From an uncultured Spirochaetales bacterium (GTDB lineage: Bacteria; Spirochaetota; Spirochaetia; Sphaerochaetales; Sphaerochaetaceae): a stretch of 11,193 nt of DNA. The position numbers and the translations under genes were made by a program. Of the stretch, positions 2,458-7,967 are shown one piece after another. Where the stretch lies: the NCBI GenBank assembly GCA_937902565.1, contig CALFMX010000049.1, positions 1 to 11,193 on the forward strand, written 5' to 3'. Position 1 is the first letter of the stretch; each line of letters starts with the position of its first letter. The notes below the pieces were generated by a model. That model made no database searches, was not told where the DNA came from, and saw nothing but the letters and a program-made list of their open reading frames with translations.

Positions 2458-2486
2458 TTGCTATTTGGCCAAAATCATGGTATTTT
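2458..2486 (+). promoter_or_regulatory. Candidate promoter of the ATPase/TOPRIM operon
   Basis: TTGCTA (2458-2463) is followed after exactly 17 bases by TATTTT (2481-2486), each matching consensus at four of six bases. The TGG just before the -10 makes an extended -10 (TGnTATTTT). Transcription would start near 2493, leaving a leader of only about 10 bases that begins with the GGAGG ribosome site (2493-2497). A perfect palindrome, TTTGGCCAAA (2464-2473), lies in the spacer, where a bound repressor would block polymerase. Confidence 0.4.
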
Positions 2487-2502
2487 ATCGGTGGAGGACG
2501 CC

Positions 2503-3600
2503 ATGCTCACACGGTTTGCCGTAACAAATTACCGAGGCTTCGATAAGAGGATTGAGCTTGATCTGTCAACACCCAAGGATTATCAGTTCAATACATATGC
2601 AATCAAAGACGGGGTGATAAAGAACGCCATCATCTATGGGCCGAACGGTTGTGGAAAGACCAACCTGAGTCTCGCTATCTTCGATATTGTTAACCACCTG
2701 TCACAGAAGTGGAAGAAGGCTACCTACTATGACAATTTTGTCTATTCGGGCTCTTCATCCAAAGTTGTTTCATTTGAATACACCTTCTTGTTTGGTAGGG
2801 ACATCATCCAATATGACTATACAAAGAACGATCGGGGGATGCTGGTACGAGAAAGTCTGCAATGTAATGGGAAATCTGTATTTAGGAAGGATGATACCCT
2901 CACATTGGACGAAAGCCAGTTCAAGATGAACGATTCGGTGAAGGTGGACCTCGAGAAGAGCTCGAATGCCATATCGATCGTGAATTATCTGCTCACCTCT
3001 TTCCCGCTTCAAAAGGATCATTATCTTCTCAAGCTCAGAGATTTTGTCGCCTCGATGCTCTGGTTCCGTTGTCTTGAACAACGGGAGTTTATCGGGTTGG
3101 AAACGGCGGTATACTATCTGAATGATTATATCATCAGCAATGGGTTTGTGCAGGAGTTCGCTGATTTCCTTGAGAAGGTGAGTGATCAACGGTTTGACTT
3201 TAGCCCAACATCCGCCGATGACAAAGCGCTTCTTTGCAACATTAATGGGAGTGCTGTCGTCTTCGATGAAATTGCATCAACAGGCACCCGGTCATTGACC
3301 CTGTTGTTCTTTTGGGTGAAGCACCTGCAGGATGCTTCCTTCGTGTTCATTGATGAATTTGACGCATTCTATCACTTCAAGCTCTCCTTTGAAGTATGCA
3401 AGCTCCTCTTCTCTCATGATTGTCAGGTGCTTCTCAGCTCACATAACACCTATCTGATGACCAATGACCTTCTCAGGCCCGACTGCAATTTTGTGATGAA
3501 TGGAAACGCGGTGAAGCCGTTATCCGACTCCACTGAAAAAGAATTGAGGTTTGGGCACAATATCGAGAAGTTATACAGAGGCGGGACGTTTGATACATGA
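2503..3600 (+). CDS. AAA (AAA_15/AAA_21-type) ATPase of a two-gene putative defence system
   Basis: The 365-residue protein is an SMC/ABC-like AAA ATPase of the OLD/RloA/AbiLi kind. It opens with the family's F-x-V-x-N-Y-R-G-F strand. Walker A is G46-P-N-G-C-G-K-T53, an ABC-signature-like stretch is S259-T-G-T-R-S-L265, Walker B is F-V-F-I-D284-E285-F-D, and the switch histidine is H314 in L-L-S-S-H-N. The middle (~60-250) is a variable insert with no family I recognise. The ATG at 2503 is chosen because GGAGG lies 5 bases before it and the conserved strand follows at once. Its TGA overlaps the ATG of the next gene (ATGA), so the two are translationally coupled. In related systems the ATPase senses the trigger and controls an associated nuclease. 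That role is inferred here. Confidence 0.85.
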   Translation: MLTRFAVTNYRGFDKRIELDLSTPKDYQFNTYAIKDGVIKNAIIYGPNGCGKTNLSLAIFDIVNHLSQKWKKATYYDNFVYSGSSSKVVSFEYTFLFGRDIIQYDYTKNDRGMLVRESLQCNGKSVFRKDDTLTLDESQFKMNDSVKVDLEKSSNAISIVNYLLTSFPLQKDHYLLKLRDFVASMLWFRCLEQREFIGLETAVYYLNDYIISNGFVQEFADFLEKVSDQRFDFSPTSADDKALLCNINGSAVVFDEIASTGTRSLTLLFFWVKHLQDASFVFIDEFDAFYHFKLSFEVCKLLFSHDCQVLLSSHNTYLMTNDLLRPDCNFVMNGNAVKPLSDSTEKELRFGHNIEKLYRGGTFDT

Positions 3601-4382
3601 TCCTATTTGTATTTGAAGGAAGAAAACGAGAACCTGCTCTGTTCAGGACGATTGAACACCTATATTTTCCTCATTCCGGCTCTATCATATGTTCTTATGA
3701 AAACAACATTTATAACTTGTTCAAAGAGATGTCGGAAAATGAATTTCAAATGGATATTGCTTCCCTCCTCCACGAGAAATGGGCAGGGACAGATCAGGAT
3801 CCATTTGGAGATTCTAGGAAAACATCAGATTTTTCCGAGGTGTTCCTCTTCTTCGATTATGACTGTCATCATCAGAACAAGGGGCGGATGACAACACTTG
3901 AAGAATGGAACTCCCAAATACGTGATATGCTGAATTTCTTCTCTGATGAGACGGGAAATGGTAAGCTCTACGTGAATTATCCGATGGTGGAATCAATCAG
4001 ATATACCAAAAAACTGCCAGACCCATTGTTTCATACCTATGTAATCAGCATTGACGAGATTCCCCGCTTTAAGAAGATTGCCGCTGATTTTTCATTTTAC
4101 AAGAACCTGGATCAAATATGCTTCGGAATAACCAGCAAGAAAGCGTTGAAGGTTCCTGATCAATCGACGTTCACCGTCGTAAAAACTCACTGGAGGCTCC
4201 TTGTTGAGCAGAATGCGAAGAAAGCCAACTTCATTTGCTCTGGAATAAATGAGTATCCGAAGAATAAAAGTGAGATTGGACAGCTTGTTGTCTTTGATCA
4301 CGAGCTTTCCAAGTTCGTAAGCCAAAATACGGTCTCGATCCTGAATTCATTTCCTCTGTTCCTCTATGATTACCTCAAATGA
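3597..4382 (+). CDS. TOPRIM/RloB-like effector partner of the AAA ATPase
   Basis: The 261-residue protein has the layout of small TOPRIM-like nucleases found next to AAA_15 ATPases. Strand one ends in F-V-F-E7-G-R-K-R-E-P, which supplies the catalytic glutamate. Next is S-Y-E-N-N-I-Y-N-L-F (33-42). Then a hydrophobic strand ends in F-F-D87-Y-D89, the DxD metal-binding motif. Then comes K-L-Y-V-N-Y-P-M-V-E-S (123-133), a block I recall from close relatives. The C-terminal half is not recognisable. The expected activity is Mg-dependent cleavage of nucleic acid (DNA, or tRNA as in PARIS), released by the ATPase. Relatives usually have G after the DxD segment (FDYDGH-like) where this one has C90. 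It follows the ATPase with a 4-base overlap. TOPRIM family membership is likely but rests on motifs read by eye. Confidence 0.7.
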   Translation: MILFVFEGRKREPALFRTIEHLYFPHSGSIICSYENNIYNLFKEMSENEFQMDIASLLHEKWAGTDQDPFGDSRKTSDFSEVFLFFDYDCHHQNKGRMTTLEEWNSQIRDMLNFFSDETGNGKLYVNYPMVESIRYTKKLPDPLFHTYVISIDEIPRFKKIAADFSFYKNLDQICFGITSKKALKVPDQSTFTVVKTHWRLLVEQNAKKANFICSGINEYPKNKSEIGQLVVFDHELSKFVSQNTVSILNSFPLFLYDYLK

Positions 4383-4442: not shown

Positions 4443-5378
4443 TCAACTAATCAAGCTACGGAGCTCCGTTTCTGCGCAGGGGGCGAAGTCAAAGACGTAG
4501 GTCTGGTGGTATGAGAGATACTCCCCGGTTCCGTCAGGAATCGTTGCAAGGCGCTTCGAATCATCTACTCCCAATCTGTCGTAGTCACGGCTGTTGAGTT
4601 GGCTAGAGAGCCTGATCGCCCCGGTCGATGTGCTGAAGGTGATCATCCCCAAATCAAAGAGCTTGTCATAGAGCGGGGAGAGGATGAGTGAGTTCCTGGG
4701 ATCGACACGCTCCTGGTCATTTGAGACCCGCCACGGCTTGATGTGGCTTGCTATGAGGATCTTTGGCTCTTCGACACCGAGGACTGCGCAGCGGTTGTCC
4801 CAGAGACGGAGTGCATCCCTGCGGTACTGTTGTTGGACGCTCCGTTGCTCGATGGTAGCAATGCGGGTGGTGTTGATGATGCGGTCATAGCGAACTGGGT
4901 CGTCGATGGCGGTATGGGATTCATCAACAAAATCTCCGTGGTAGAACACGGTATCGGCATACTCATAGAGACTGAACTTTGTCTTGCATGGGGTGCCCGG
5001 CTCGAAGTATTGGCTGGCGATCGGGATGGCCCGTCCGTAGTACCGATAATCTCTCTGCTCCCGCTTCTCCCGGATGAAGACAAAGATCTCGTACTCACCA
5101 CTGTTCATGTTCTTCTCGACAAACCGGTTCTTGAGCTGACCCTCCCAGTAGAGGACATCGTTGTCGACGTGGTCCCTATACGGGGTCGCCTCCTTATGCT
5201 TCTCAAGGTTGATGAGCAGCACGATGGCGTTCTCGCCGGTCCTGCTCAGGACCCCTTTACGCAGTGCTCCCGTAAACTGCATCTCAAGAAGATCCGCGAT
5301 CTCTTGGAGGGTGTAACTCTCCATGATCTCGAGTGCGGTGAGAAGATTGTGGGTCAGTCGTGTGGACAGCCTGCTCAT
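4443..5378 (-). CDS. HNH endonuclease with DUF3427-like N-terminal region
   Basis: The 311-residue protein has two parts. Residues ~20-145 resemble the DUF3427-type region (G-V-L...A-I-V-L-L-I-N-L-E-K, Y-R-D-H...D-V-L-Y-W-E-G-Q, I-F-V-F-I-R-E-K, Y-Y-G-R-A), a module seen next to helicases and HNH nucleases, probably for DNA recognition. Residues ~195-255 are an HNH_2-type nuclease: C197-A-V-L-G, I-A-S-H212-I-K-P-W, R-N229-S-L-I-L-S, then Y-D238-K-L-F-D242. The third 'HNH' position is D, as in other members of the family. It is probably a modification-sensing or defence nuclease. It is transcribed away from the MazG gene, 91 bases from it. No upstream start is possible (TGA nine codons before), and the ATG lacks a good ribosome site. 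M19 (ATG at 5324) is an alternative start. Confidence 0.82.
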   Translation of the reverse strand: MSRLSTRLTHNLLTALEIMESYTLQEIADLLEMQFTGALRKGVLSRTGENAIVLLINLEKHKEATPYRDHVDNDVLYWEGQLKNRFVEKNMNSGEYEIFVFIREKREQRDYRYYGRAIPIASQYFEPGTPCKTKFSLYEYADTVFYHGDFVDESHTAIDDPVRYDRIINTTRIATIEQRSVQQQYRRDALRLWDNRCAVLGVEEPKILIASHIKPWRVSNDQERVDPRNSLILSPLYDKLFDLGMITFSTSTGAIRLSSQLNSRDYDRLGVDDSKRLATIPDGTGEYLSYHQTYVFDFAPCAETELRSLIS

Positions 5379-5384
5379 GAATCC

Positions 5385-5413
5385 AGGATCTGCTGCTTTG
5401 GCTCATAGGTCAA
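5385..5413 (-). promoter_or_regulatory. Weak candidate promoter for the HNH gene
   Basis: On the - strand, TTGACC (5408-5413) is followed after 17 bases by GATCCT (5385-5390). The -35 is good (five of six) but the -10 is poor (three of six). The first base expected in the RNA, seven bases past the -10, is the A of the HNH start codon, which would make the message leaderless. This fits the lack of a ribosome site, but the weak -10 keeps confidence low. Confidence 0.25.
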
Positions 5414-5454
5414 GTCCTGATTGGGTTTTCTCCCTTTCTGTTCACTCCTACCGG

Positions 5455-5463
5455 TGGTATACT
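5455..5463 (+). promoter_or_regulatory. Extended -10 promoter directly before the MazG gene
   Basis: TGGTATACT is an extended -10 (TGnTATACT), matching the hexamer consensus at five of six bases. The best -35 at normal spacing (5435-5440) is poor, as is common for extended -10 promoters. Seven bases past the hexamer is the A of the MazG ATG at 5470. There is no purine-rich ribosome site between them, so the transcript is probably leaderless. Confidence 0.5.
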
Positions 5464-5469
5464 TGCCCT

Positions 5470-6015
5470 ATGCATATACAAGAGCGGATCAAGCGGGCCC
5501 AGGCGTTTATGGGACTCTCAGATAGTGAGATGGCAGCTGAGCTGGAGATGGGGGAGTGTGAATACCTGGAGAGGGTGGAGCGTGCTGGTTCTGAGTTCTG
5601 CCAGGTTCTGAACAGCGTCTTCGGTATCTCTCTTTCATTTTTGTTGGAGGGCACCGATCCACTCTTCGATTGGAGACCGCTTCCTGTCTCTGATATTCTC
5701 CGCTTCCGTGATGAGCGGAACTGGAAGCAGTTCCATACCCCCAAGGATCTGGCAATCTCCATCACCCTGGAGGCTTCGGAGCTCCTGGAGTGCTTCCAAT
5801 GGTCGGCCGAGGACCTTGAGGTCGAAGAGAAGCGGGCTGCCATGGAGGAGGAGCTTGCCGACATCCTCATCTACGCTGTCTCCTTCGCCGATGCCATCGG
5901 CGCCGATATCCCCTCGATCATCCGTGATAAACTCAAGAAGAATGGGAAGAAGTATACCGTTGGTCGCTCATGGGGCAACGCTACCAAGTACACCGACTTT
6001 GAAGAGGAGTTGTGA
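5470..6015 (+). CDS. HTH-MazG fusion, MazG-like nucleotide pyrophosphohydrolase
   Basis: The 181-residue protein joins two parts. Residues ~1-65 look like an XRE-type helix-turn-helix (I-Q-E-R-I...L-S-D-S-E-M-A-A-E-L...V-L-N-S-V-F-G-I-S-L-S-F-L-L-E). Residues ~72-178 are a MazG/dCTPase-like all-alpha NTP pyrophosphatase with both metal motifs: E101-A-S-E104-L-L-E, then E128-L-A-D131-I-L-I-Y. The family's C-terminal K-L-K-K-N-G-K-K-Y...K-Y-T-D block closes it. It should hydrolyse (d)NTPs to NMP and pyrophosphate in the cytoplasm, and the HTH may let it bind its own promoter. The ATG at 5470 is chosen over in-frame upstream ATGs because the HTH starts there and an extended -10 ends seven bases before it. 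Its TGA shares one base with the next ATG. MazG enzymes of this type are usually ~100-120 residues, so the HTH is an addition. Confidence 0.85.
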   Translation: MHIQERIKRAQAFMGLSDSEMAAELEMGECEYLERVERAGSEFCQVLNSVFGISLSFLLEGTDPLFDWRPLPVSDILRFRDERNWKQFHTPKDLAISITLEASELLECFQWSAEDLEVEEKRAAMEEELADILIYAVSFADAIGADIPSIIRDKLKKNGKKYTVGRSWGNATKYTDFEEEL

Positions 6016-7967
6016 TGCTGGTCTACAGTGGGGACAAGGCACAGTTCCTTGAGGATGTCGCGACCAACGAGATCGATCGGAAGATCGAGGAGATGATGGC
6101 CCTCAAGCTGAAGAAGCGGGTCGGGGAGCGGGAGCACGCGTCGTGGATGAACTCGATGCAGTATATGCAGAATATTTTGATGGACAGCGAGATCCCCTCC
6201 GACTGCGGGGTAGCCATCGAGTTCAACATCCCCAATACCGCCAAGCGGGTCGACTTCATTATCAGCGGGCTTGGCGAGAGTGATGACCGTAACGCCATCA
6301 TCGTCGAGCTCAAGCAGTGGAGTCAGGTGGAGAGCATCCCGTCGGTCGAGCAACTTTTGCGCTACAACCCCGAAGCCGAGGTCATCAATGTGCAGACGAT
6401 CTTGGGCAGGGGCCTCGTCGAGACCGCTCACCCCTCCTACCAGGCGACCTCGTACCGGACCCTCATCAGCGACTACAATGTCAATGTCCAGGAGCTCCCC
6501 ATTAGGCTCAACAGTTGTGCCTACCTGCACAACTATCGAAAGAGAGCGGGTAAGGATCCGCTCTTCATGCCCTACTTTGATGAGGTGCTCAAAGAGTCCC
6601 CCCTCTTTGTGCGCGATGACGTGAGGAAGTTGCAGGCGTTCATCAAGCGATACATCAAGAAGGGGGACTCAAAGAACACCCTCTACTACATCGATGACAG
6701 TGAGATCAAACCGTCAAAGAGCCTGCAGGACTCCCTCTCGGCGATGCTCAAAGGCAAGCGGGAGTTCACCCTCATAGACGAGCAGAAGGTCGTCTATGAG
6801 AAGATCCTCGCCATGAGCAGACGATCACAGAAGGATGGAAGGAAGCGGGTCTTCATCGTCGAGGGCGGGCCGGGAACCGGCAAGACGGTGGTTGCCATCA
6901 ACCTCCTGGTGGAGCTGACGAGAGGGGATCAGCTGGTCGCCTATGTGACCAAGAACAGCGCCCCGCGCAATGTCTTTGAAGCGAAGCTGAAGGAGGGGGC
7001 GTTCAAGCGGAAGAACATCTCGGCCCTCTTCAAGAGCTCCTCGGCCTTCATCGATGCGGATGAGAACGACTTTGACACCCTCATCGTCGATGAGGCGCAC
7101 CGCCTCAACGAACGCTCACAGCTCGGGCCGAGGGTGATGGGGGAGAACCAGATCAAGGAGCTCATCGCTGCATCCAAGAGTGTTGTCTTCTTCCTCGATG
7201 AGGACCAGCGGGTCACCGCCAAGGACTACGGGGACCGAAAGACTATCAAGAGGTGGGCCGAATACTTTGGCGCCGAGGTCAGCGAAGGGGCCTTGCTCTC
7301 CCAGTTTCGCTGTAGTGGCTCTGATGGCTACCTCGCCTGGCTTGACGGGGTGCTGGGCATCCATGACGAGACGGCCCATCCGACCCTCGATGGCATCCCC
7401 TATGATTTCAAGGTTGTTGACGATCCCCTTGTGCTCAAGACGCTCATCGAAGAGAAGAACAGAGAGGACAACAAGAGCCGGCTGGTGGCCGGCTACTGCT
7501 GGGAGTGGGCTTCAAAGAAGGATAAGGAGGCCGATGACATCGTCATCGGCGACTTCTCGATGCAGTGGAACCTTGCCAGTGATACCACCTACGCCATCAG
7601 CGAGGGGTCTATCAACCAGGTGGGGTGCATCCACACCACACAGGGCCTTGAGTTCAGCTATGTCGGTGTGATCATCGGCGATGACCTGCGCTTTGAGGGC
7701 GGGAGGGTCATCACCGACTACACCCGCCGGGCAAAGAGCGACAAGTCCCTCCATGGCCTCATCGGCCCGGCCAAGAAGGGGAGTGTGGAGGCGCTTGCAG
7801 ATATCGACCTCATCATCCGCAACACCTACCGCACCCTGATGAGCCGGGGGATGAAGGGGTGCTATGTCTACTGCACCGATGGGCCGCTCGCCTCCTTCCT
7901 CAAGAGCCGGATCGAGGGGTATCAGGCAGACGTGACCTATATGGAGGCTGCGGAGGAAGAACTGTGA
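6015..7967 (+). CDS. DUF2075 helicase with N-terminal PD-(D/E)XK-like nuclease
   Basis: The 650-residue cytoplasmic protein starts with a PD-(D/E)XK-like module: E69, D80 in K-R-V-D-F-I-I, and E98-L-K100 in I-I-V-E-L-K-Q-W. A family-typical H-P-S-Y-Q-A-T-S-Y follows at 139-147. From ~255 it is a DUF2075 (Schlafen-group-3-like, superfamily 1-type) helicase. Walker A is V-E-G-G-P-G-T-G-K290-T, Walker B is L-I-V-D359-E360-A-H-R, motif III-like is L-D395-E-D-Q-R-V, then L-S-Q430-F-R432, then T-T-Q-G-L-E-F (541-547) and Y-R-T-L-M-S-R611-G for the late motifs. All key residues are present, so it should be an active ATPase, and the nuclease site looks intact. GAGGAG lies 7 bases before the ATG at 6015, which overlaps the MazG stop; an adjacent GTG at 6012 is also possible. 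Direct coupling to MazG suggests one functional unit, probably defensive. Confidence 0.87.
   Translation: MLVYSGDKAQFLEDVATNEIDRKIEEMMALKLKKRVGEREHASWMNSMQYMQNILMDSEIPSDCGVAIEFNIPNTAKRVDFIISGLGESDDRNAIIVELKQWSQVESIPSVEQLLRYNPEAEVINVQTILGRGLVETAHPSYQATSYRTLISDYNVNVQELPIRLNSCAYLHNYRKRAGKDPLFMPYFDEVLKESPLFVRDDVRKLQAFIKRYIKKGDSKNTLYYIDDSEIKPSKSLQDSLSAMLKGKREFTLIDEQKVVYEKILAMSRRSQKDGRKRVFIVEGGPGTGKTVVAINLLVELTRGDQLVAYVTKNSAPRNVFEAKLKEGAFKRKNISALFKSSSAFIDADENDFDTLIVDEAHRLNERSQLGPRVMGENQIKELIAASKSVVFFLDEDQRVTAKDYGDRKTIKRWAEYFGAEVSEGALLSQFRCSGSDGYLAWLDGVLGIHDETAHPTLDGIPYDFKVVDDPLVLKTLIEEKNREDNKSRLVAGYCWEWASKKDKEADDIVIGDFSMQWNLASDTTYAISEGSINQVGCIHTTQGLEFSYVGVIIGDDLRFEGGRVITDYTRRAKSDKSLHGLIGPAKKGSVEALADIDLIIRNTYRTLMSRGMKGCYVYCTDGPLASFLKSRIEGYQADVTYMEAAEEEL

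Follow-up and report, generated by a model that had tools for sequence, protein, structure and literature searches.

A MazG and nuclease-helicase gene pair from a spirochaete as a candidate two-gene defence module

Two kinds of described phage defence bear on the locus reported here, in which a gene for a MazG-type nucleotide hydrolase is followed directly by a gene for a nuclease-helicase. Nucleotide-depletion systems form the one kind; the other combines a nuclease with a DNA motor, as Gabija and Hachiman do with divided labour and as Nhi and AbiO do in a single chain of nuclease and superfamily 1 (SF1) helicase. A passage of PMC12904381 describes Nhi as a single-gene system that nicks and unwinds DNA and is tied to the single-stranded DNA-binding protein (SSB) of the phage. 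In a passage on DefensePredictor (PMC13092281), MazG appears among predicted, unvalidated defence domains; that passage names no partner, and the same pair may already feature there. On the nucleotide side, a passage of PMC7162842 ascribes to DCTPP1 a high affinity for deoxycytidine triphosphate (dCTP) and modified dCTP forms.

The locus lies on an 11,193-base contig of an uncultured Spirochaetales bacterium (CALFMX010000049.1; the stretch analysed, hereafter the window), which is one whole contig of a 332-contig assembly of 2.33 Mb and whose nearest named relatives in homologue searches are Sphaerochaeta, very probably its own genus. On the forward strand, the MazG gene, with a helix-turn-helix (HTH) at its N-terminus, occupies 5470..6015 (181 amino acids; PF12643) and the nuclease-helicase gene 6015..7967 (650 amino acids from ATG 6015; PF09848), so that the MazG stop and the nuclease-helicase ATG have exactly one base in common. 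The list of open reading frames (ORFs) also offers a longer MazG frame from 5323, and ATG 5470 was judged the best start. An SRA-like + HNH_2 endonuclease gene reads away from the pair on the reverse strand at 4443..5378 (311 amino acids; PF13391), across a 91-base intergenic stretch (5379..5469). The original prediction, made from the letters of the window, had placed three genes in this way, and the ORFs, the 91-base gap and the one-base overlap bear it out. We group the genes differently: a mobile defence module of two genes, MazG and the nuclease-helicase, seems to us reasonably probable, with the HNH gene as an independent neighbour in a hotspot.

Composition of the pair

The nuclease-helicase joins a PD-(D/E)XK nuclease (about residues 1–240) and an SF1 helicase of the DUF2075/Schlafen group 3 type (about 245–635) in one chain, so that the motor is fused to its nuclease. 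PF09848, formerly DUF2075 and now named SLFN-g3_helicase, scores 327 bits against a cut-off of 24 and is covered from position 1 to 354 of 354; motif I (GGPGTGK, 284–290) and DEAH (359–362) are both present. Specifically, the nuclease residues D80 and E98-x-K100 ('ELKQW') are invariant in 37/37 aligned sequences and are positioned at strands 81–86 and 92–100 of the predicted model. Together with the PF09848 score, this bears out the PD-(D/E)XK-DUF2075 architecture proposed at the outset. The family is large, with at least 7,998 helicase homologues at E ≤ 1e-30.

Whole-chain fold searches return matches dominated by the helicase part. The first Foldseek match is SLFN11, and the helicase fold also matches UvrD, RecD2, HelD and Dna2. 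Since a PDB sequence search with the helicase profile gives SLFN11 at E 0.032 only, the link to Schlafens is drawn from Pfam and fold. The window protein shares PF09848 with Schlafen group 3 (human SLFN11 and SLFN14) and with bacterial Schlafens, but its list of 24 Pfam families at E ≤ 1 contains no Schlafen RNase core, and an active-looking PD-(D/E)XK domain forms the N-terminus instead. A preprint reportedly treats bacterial Schlafens in phage defence, and could overlap this helicase family. The structural alignments to SLFN11 and SLFN14 start at model residues 6–41 (range 6–622) and those to the other listed helicases at about 235 or later, these ranges being end points only; VIA-align covers mainly 238–635 and says little about the N-terminal part. 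The extension of the SLFN11/SLFN14 range into the nuclease part suggests that an inactivated PD-(D/E)XK domain may make up the Schlafen linker.

MazG scores 67.9 bits with PF12643 (MazG-like; curated cut-off 27) and is composed of an XRE-type HTH (about residues 1–60) and an all-alpha nucleoside triphosphate (NTP) pyrophosphohydrolase domain (74–177). The latter matches a pyrophosphatase (PDB 4qgp, 1e-20) and DCTPP1 (2.5e-19). Four acidic residues of the ExxE...ExxD motif (E101, E104, E128 and D131) are invariant in 61/61 locus MazG genes, a set made up of the window and related loci, some of them not adjoining a helicase. The WxxFH and FQW motifs are largely kept in this set, with W85, H89 and W111, which presumably line the base pocket of DCTPP1, retained in 98, 97 and 90%. 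Judged by its likeness to DCTPP1, MazG would hydrolyse a deoxynucleoside triphosphate (dNTP), with dCTP or 5-modified dCTP as the most likely substrate. It differs from DCTPP1 and MazG-like pyrophosphatases in being the operon partner of a nuclease-helicase and in its fusion to an HTH in this genus. The Pfam scan of the window protein did not score the HTH; homologues of similar length carry HTH_3 or HTH_19 (for example P0139–P0141, P0143 and P0144). In addition, same-genus MazG frames are 182–214 amino acids long (11 loci), a length that the HTH extension requires, and 52 of the 61 frames of the first locus set measure 100–129. Of the HTH-MazG reading in the original prediction, the MazG part is thus confirmed by PF12643, and the HTH part is carried by the homologues.

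Among known systems, Nhi (1.2e-14) and AbiO (1.4e-14) are the best PADLOC matches of the nuclease-helicase and share its plan of nuclease and SF1 helicase in a single chain, but the matches span only about residues 250–406, with none over the nuclease part, and Nhi is a single-gene system whereas the window protein is paired with MazG. Gabija and Hachiman are not among the 11 PADLOC families listed for the nuclease-helicase. They and other systems of nuclease plus helicase likewise divide the work between a nuclease and a DNA motor; here, in contrast, these two are fused in one protein, whose partner hydrolyses nucleotides. No PADLOC 2023 model matches the window MazG at E ≤ 0.1. A literature search, with subscription journals and bioRxiv mostly outside it, returned no description of a coupling of DUF2075 with MazG, and provisionally the pair is possibly an undescribed two-gene module.

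Linkage of MazG and the nuclease-helicase

MazG and the nuclease-helicase are linked beyond chance in four tests, on loci, tree, plasmids and 100 genomes. A MazG-family gene adjoins the helicase gene on the same strand in 49 of 80 genome loci, 28 times before it and 21 times after it, so that both gene orders are found, across phyla; these loci are the best 80 of 586 relatives, biased to near kin, and their species differ. The 49 genes fall in 66 kb beside the helicase, compared with 5 in 721 kb elsewhere, a roughly 107-fold difference in density, and the gaps between MazG and helicase are short in the relatives. L001, a copy of the window, was left out of the neighbour counts (labels in L denote loci and labels in G genomes). 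In a tree of 89 of the 92 helicases (L006 and L009 were omitted for short frames and L092 for a contig end), the 'before' state must have changed at least 14 times and the 'after' state at least 7 times on well supported branches, indicating that the pairing has been lost, regained or rearranged repeatedly.

The plasmid survey covered 72,556 records, with limits of E 1e-5 for the helicase and 1e-8 for the MazG core. The helicase occurs in 37 records, the MazG core in 20, and both in 10 versus 0.01 expected (Fisher 6e-29). The 10 include two records from a single Hymenobacter strain, and the 37 include two versions of the same Methanosphaera plasmid. The two genes are on the same strand in 10/10, lying within 1 kb in five, about 3.8 kb apart in two (one across the record start) and 8–10 kb apart in three. 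In 100 genomes, the window's own included, 29 hold both genes, 6 the helicase only, 6 MazG only and 59 neither (p 1e-13); the association persists outside the genus (p 3e-6), and the two genes are no more than about 1 kb apart in 25 of the 29. Relatedness is not taken into account in the Fisher tests.

No other gene family within five genes of the helicase occurs in more than 5 of 92 loci. A Pfam tally of 145 of the 153 neighbouring proteins (those left out include four long ones and one frame antisense to an HNH gene) gives HTH_3 six times and HNH_2 and HNH_4 four times each, and hence no second common partner; the HNH gene of L010 was dropped from the family tally by the overlap rule of the gene caller. 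The helicase is found in bacteria and archaea, including copies on plasmids and in phage records. Among viral contigs, a single-protein query gave no match and an alignment query gave three loci, in one of which (L090) MazG adjoins the helicase.

The HNH gene and the hotspot

The HNH protein scores 38.6 bits with HNH_2 (PF13391; cut-off 21), and its catalytic-motif residues H212 and N229 are invariant in 31/31 aligned sequences. In sequence it matches VcaM4I across the HNH half (1.9e-17). Its model, with a predicted local distance difference test (pLDDT) of 81, matches VcaM4I (1e-8), SauUSI (2e-4), AspBHI (3e-4) and the SRA domain of SUVH5 (4e-4) in Foldseek, and the fold matches to SauUSI, AspBHI and SUVH5, at E 2e-4 to 1e-3, mark an SRA-like sensor of the PUA superfamily. 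The superposition of VcaM4I on the whole chain is poor (template modelling (TM) score 0.3, root-mean-square deviation 18–20 Å), and Pfam SRA, with E 0.09 in the window protein and 0.0056 in one homologue, stays below its cut-off. By fold, the protein looks like an SRA-like-HNH, type IV-like endonuclease of the modification-dependent type, with the architecture of TagI and VcaM4I. In the passages concerned, SRA-HNH and EVE-HNH fusions are modification-dependent endonucleases (PMC7897488, PMC6212794), and the EVE-HNH protein VcaM4I senses 5-methylcytosine (5mC) and 5-hydroxymethylcytosine (5hmC) (PMC7897488). This SRA-like reading replaces the earlier label 'DUF3427-like', which proved borderline: precomputed DUF3427 assignments occur in 20 of 89 HNH homologues, and none is found in the window protein (E ≤ 1) or in a scan of homologue P0002 (E ≤ 0.01).

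HNH genes of the window type lie near the pair in 11 of 18 same-genus helicase loci, and a weak match (G016) adds one more; the distance is at most about 2.2 kb, and in some cases one or two genes intervene. In G001, G003, G007, G009, G011, G017, G019, G024 and G025 the gene adjoins a rubrerythrin-like gene and keeps within this distance of the pair, and in G004 it is oriented as the pair. L010, L011 and L012 were taken as G024, G013 and G025 and were not recounted in the genus figures. Genes of the PDC-M19A/B type lie between HNH and MazG in G003, G019 and G025, where G011 has just one of these two genes and G009 a fragment; the assignment was scored in G003 and made by clustering in the other four. 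In G009 (L137), several stops interrupt both MazG and the helicase, and the HNH gene is an open frame of 321 amino acids. Conversely, G007 has a stop within the HNH stretch and an intact helicase, and a single stop of this kind may come from a mistake in the draft assembly.

Genes of a second HNH family, whose N-terminus differs, overlap the helicase stop by 4 bases in G002, G004, G007, G008, G012, G018 and G024. In L149 (G039:C78, 6335–7031), MazG is followed after 2 bases, and without an intervening helicase, by a gene of this second family that the contig end truncates, and the preceding genes are of the same families as those before MazG-helicase-HNH in the Mza-type island of G002. In L067 (2872–5617, Clostridiales), an HNH nuclease precedes MazG and overlaps a gene that resembles a cytosine DNA methyltransferase, as read from its N-terminus.

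The rubrerythrin-like gene, at 1703–2254 in the window, flanks cassettes that vary among species (PDC-M12, PDC-M19, HipA and DUF2779) and marks a defence hotspot in the genus. Between it and the HNH gene, the window carries on the forward strand an AAA ATPase (2458–3600) and a RloB-like protein (3597–4382), which match the PADLOC candidates PDC-M12A (3.6e-130) and PDC-M12B (3.8e-66). This cassette (2458..4382) is separate from the pair, and its proteins have no match in the 20 same-family loci compared. Across the genus, the defence genes near the pair include PDC-M12, PDC-M19, HipA, and MzaC/MzaE accompanied by an AIPR protein; plasmids of Hymenobacter and Priestia have restriction-modification genes near the helicase, with the Hymenobacter MazG 8.4 kb off. 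Helicase presence is patchy, at 35 of 100 genomes, and 8 of 25 congeners lack the gene, three of these eight assemblies being at least 90% complete. Such surroundings suggest a defence role of the pair. The remaining neighbours in the window are an alpha/beta hydrolase, a DeoR-type regulator and the beginning of an ABC transporter operon.

The divergent gap contains a 12-base inverted repeat (5404–5415 and 5461–5472), whose second arm covers the MazG start codon and reaches 3 bases into the gene; none of 30 shuffles gave one as good. It is a possible candidate operator for the HTH in the window. As a conserved operator it was rejected, the motif being absent from the MazG upstream regions of 14/14 relatives checked. 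Promoter-like sites (2 versus 1.8 expected) and terminators (2 versus 2.5 expected) show no excess.

Possible roles of the pair

By analogy with described systems, the pair is probably an antiviral device. The helicase would load on phage replication or recombination intermediates and the PD-(D/E)XK domain would cut them, in the manner of Nhi, while hydrolysis of dNTPs by MazG would starve phage replication, help to switch the nuclease on, or both; the HTH part of MazG in this lineage would probably regulate the operon. Several observations weigh against a mobile two-gene defence module with a separate HNH neighbour. The nucleotide specificity of MazG is an analogy. The pairing labels are clustered on the helicase tree (0/500 shuffles as low), so the 49 paired loci are not 49 independent events, and 24 of the 80 loci, many of them in Bacillaceae and Caryophanaceae, have no MazG nearby (three more are cut), which shows that the helicase can do without MazG. 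The 11 congeners with a rubrerythrin at least 60% identical (G025 is outside this comparison) all keep the helicase, one in decayed form, as they would a useful chromosomal gene, and the helicase is therefore not short-lived in the genus; housekeeping-like conservation in close relatives is thus seen in part, given the eight congeners that lack the gene. Furthermore, an HNH gene of one or other family stands close to the pair in 16 of the 18 same-genus loci, with the 4-base overlap in seven, and HNH and helicase co-occur in the 100 genomes (p 0.0002), within the genus (p 0.038; 0.036 in an earlier table of 11, 1, 7 and 7 with a stricter HNH limit) and when any HNH in the genus is counted (p 0.020).

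These HNH counts, together with the fact that a contig end truncates each of the other two loci (G013 and G020) on one side, favour a three-part system against modified-cytosine phages, in which MazG would remove modified dCTP, a PUA-type (SRA/EVE-like) HNH would cut modified DNA, and the helicase-nuclease would degrade the products. The passages on VcaM4I as a sensor of 5mC/5hmC (PMC7897488) and on DCTPP1 as a binder of dCTP and its modified forms (PMC7162842) are consistent with it, as are the second HNH next to the helicase in L078 (a gammaproteobacterium) and, convergent, in L085 (Lentibacillus), and its place directly after MazG in L149. We nevertheless judge such a system unlikely. The 100-genome association arises through the association in the genus, which shared descent at one hotspot can explain: among the 74 genomes outside the genus, 2 hold both window-type HNH and helicase, on separate contigs (G052 and G076), 15 the helicase only, 4 HNH only and 53 neither (Fisher p 0.62). 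HNH occurs without the helicase in G005, G035 and G046. None of the 59 plasmid records with an HNH match, mostly to the HNH half, is among the 37 with a helicase, which is a lack of support only, as just 0.03 were expected by chance. The second HNH alone is unassociated in the genus (p 0.42); in its 11 genomes it follows the helicase in seven, has no helicase in G006 and G023, is on another contig in G020 and at a contig start in G054, and four full-length plasmid relatives have no annotated helicase within the 3–4 kb examined. In some relatives HNH is separated from the pair by whole defence cassettes, and the two decay separately, with an intact HNH beside the decayed pair of G009 and an HNH stop beside the intact helicase of G007. 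Because of the missing association outside the genus, the cassettes between and the separate decay, the HNH gene is best read as an independent neighbour in the same hotspot, frequent in the genus and not a fixed component. The fixed three-gene unit of the original prediction, with HNH linked to the pair elsewhere, is rejected, the linkage being within the genus only. Linkage beyond chance across genomes, the check that it proposed, holds for the MazG-DUF2075 pair and is not seen for HNH outside the genus; the surroundings of the pair are defence genes, in line with a defence module.

Nucleotide-inhibited nucleases are known in Gabija, and a similar arrangement could operate here, in which dNTPs would hold the nuclease off and MazG, as trigger and not effector, would lower the pool to release it. 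The one-base overlap in the window and the short gaps in relatives argue for this arrangement, but the 24 helicase loci without MazG nearby argue against it, and we regard it as improbable. A DNA-maintenance pair, with MazG sanitising the nucleotide pool, the helicase-nuclease repairing or restarting forks and no role in defence, seems to us very doubtful. It would accord with the action of MazG/DCTPP1 enzymes on nucleotide pools described in a passage of PMC7162842, with the UvrD, RecD2, HelD and Dna2 matches and with the locus kept in the 11 closest congeners; the patchy distribution, the plasmid and phage-record copies, the spread over bacteria and archaea, the defence surroundings and the decay in G009 speak against it.

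A broader picture would be a widespread, undescribed prokaryotic immune system in which a pyrophosphatase acting on modified dCTP cooperates with a Schlafen-type helicase that carries its own nuclease, with modification-sensing HNHs as interchangeable third parts; the linker and helicase half of vertebrate SLFN11 would then descend from such a protein, with the linker as a disarmed nuclease. The idea of descent comes from the SLFN11 and SLFN14 alignments, which begin near the N-terminus of the model, unlike those of the other helicases. We hold this picture as a speculation with little probability.

For the two-gene defence module that we favour, nuclease-helicase and nucleotide-depletion defences are each known, and the literature searches made gave no description of the two joined in a conserved operon whose motor is of the Schlafen family. 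The pair is a candidate system that could readily be tested, and it places the helicase half of a human protein family in a prokaryotic context.

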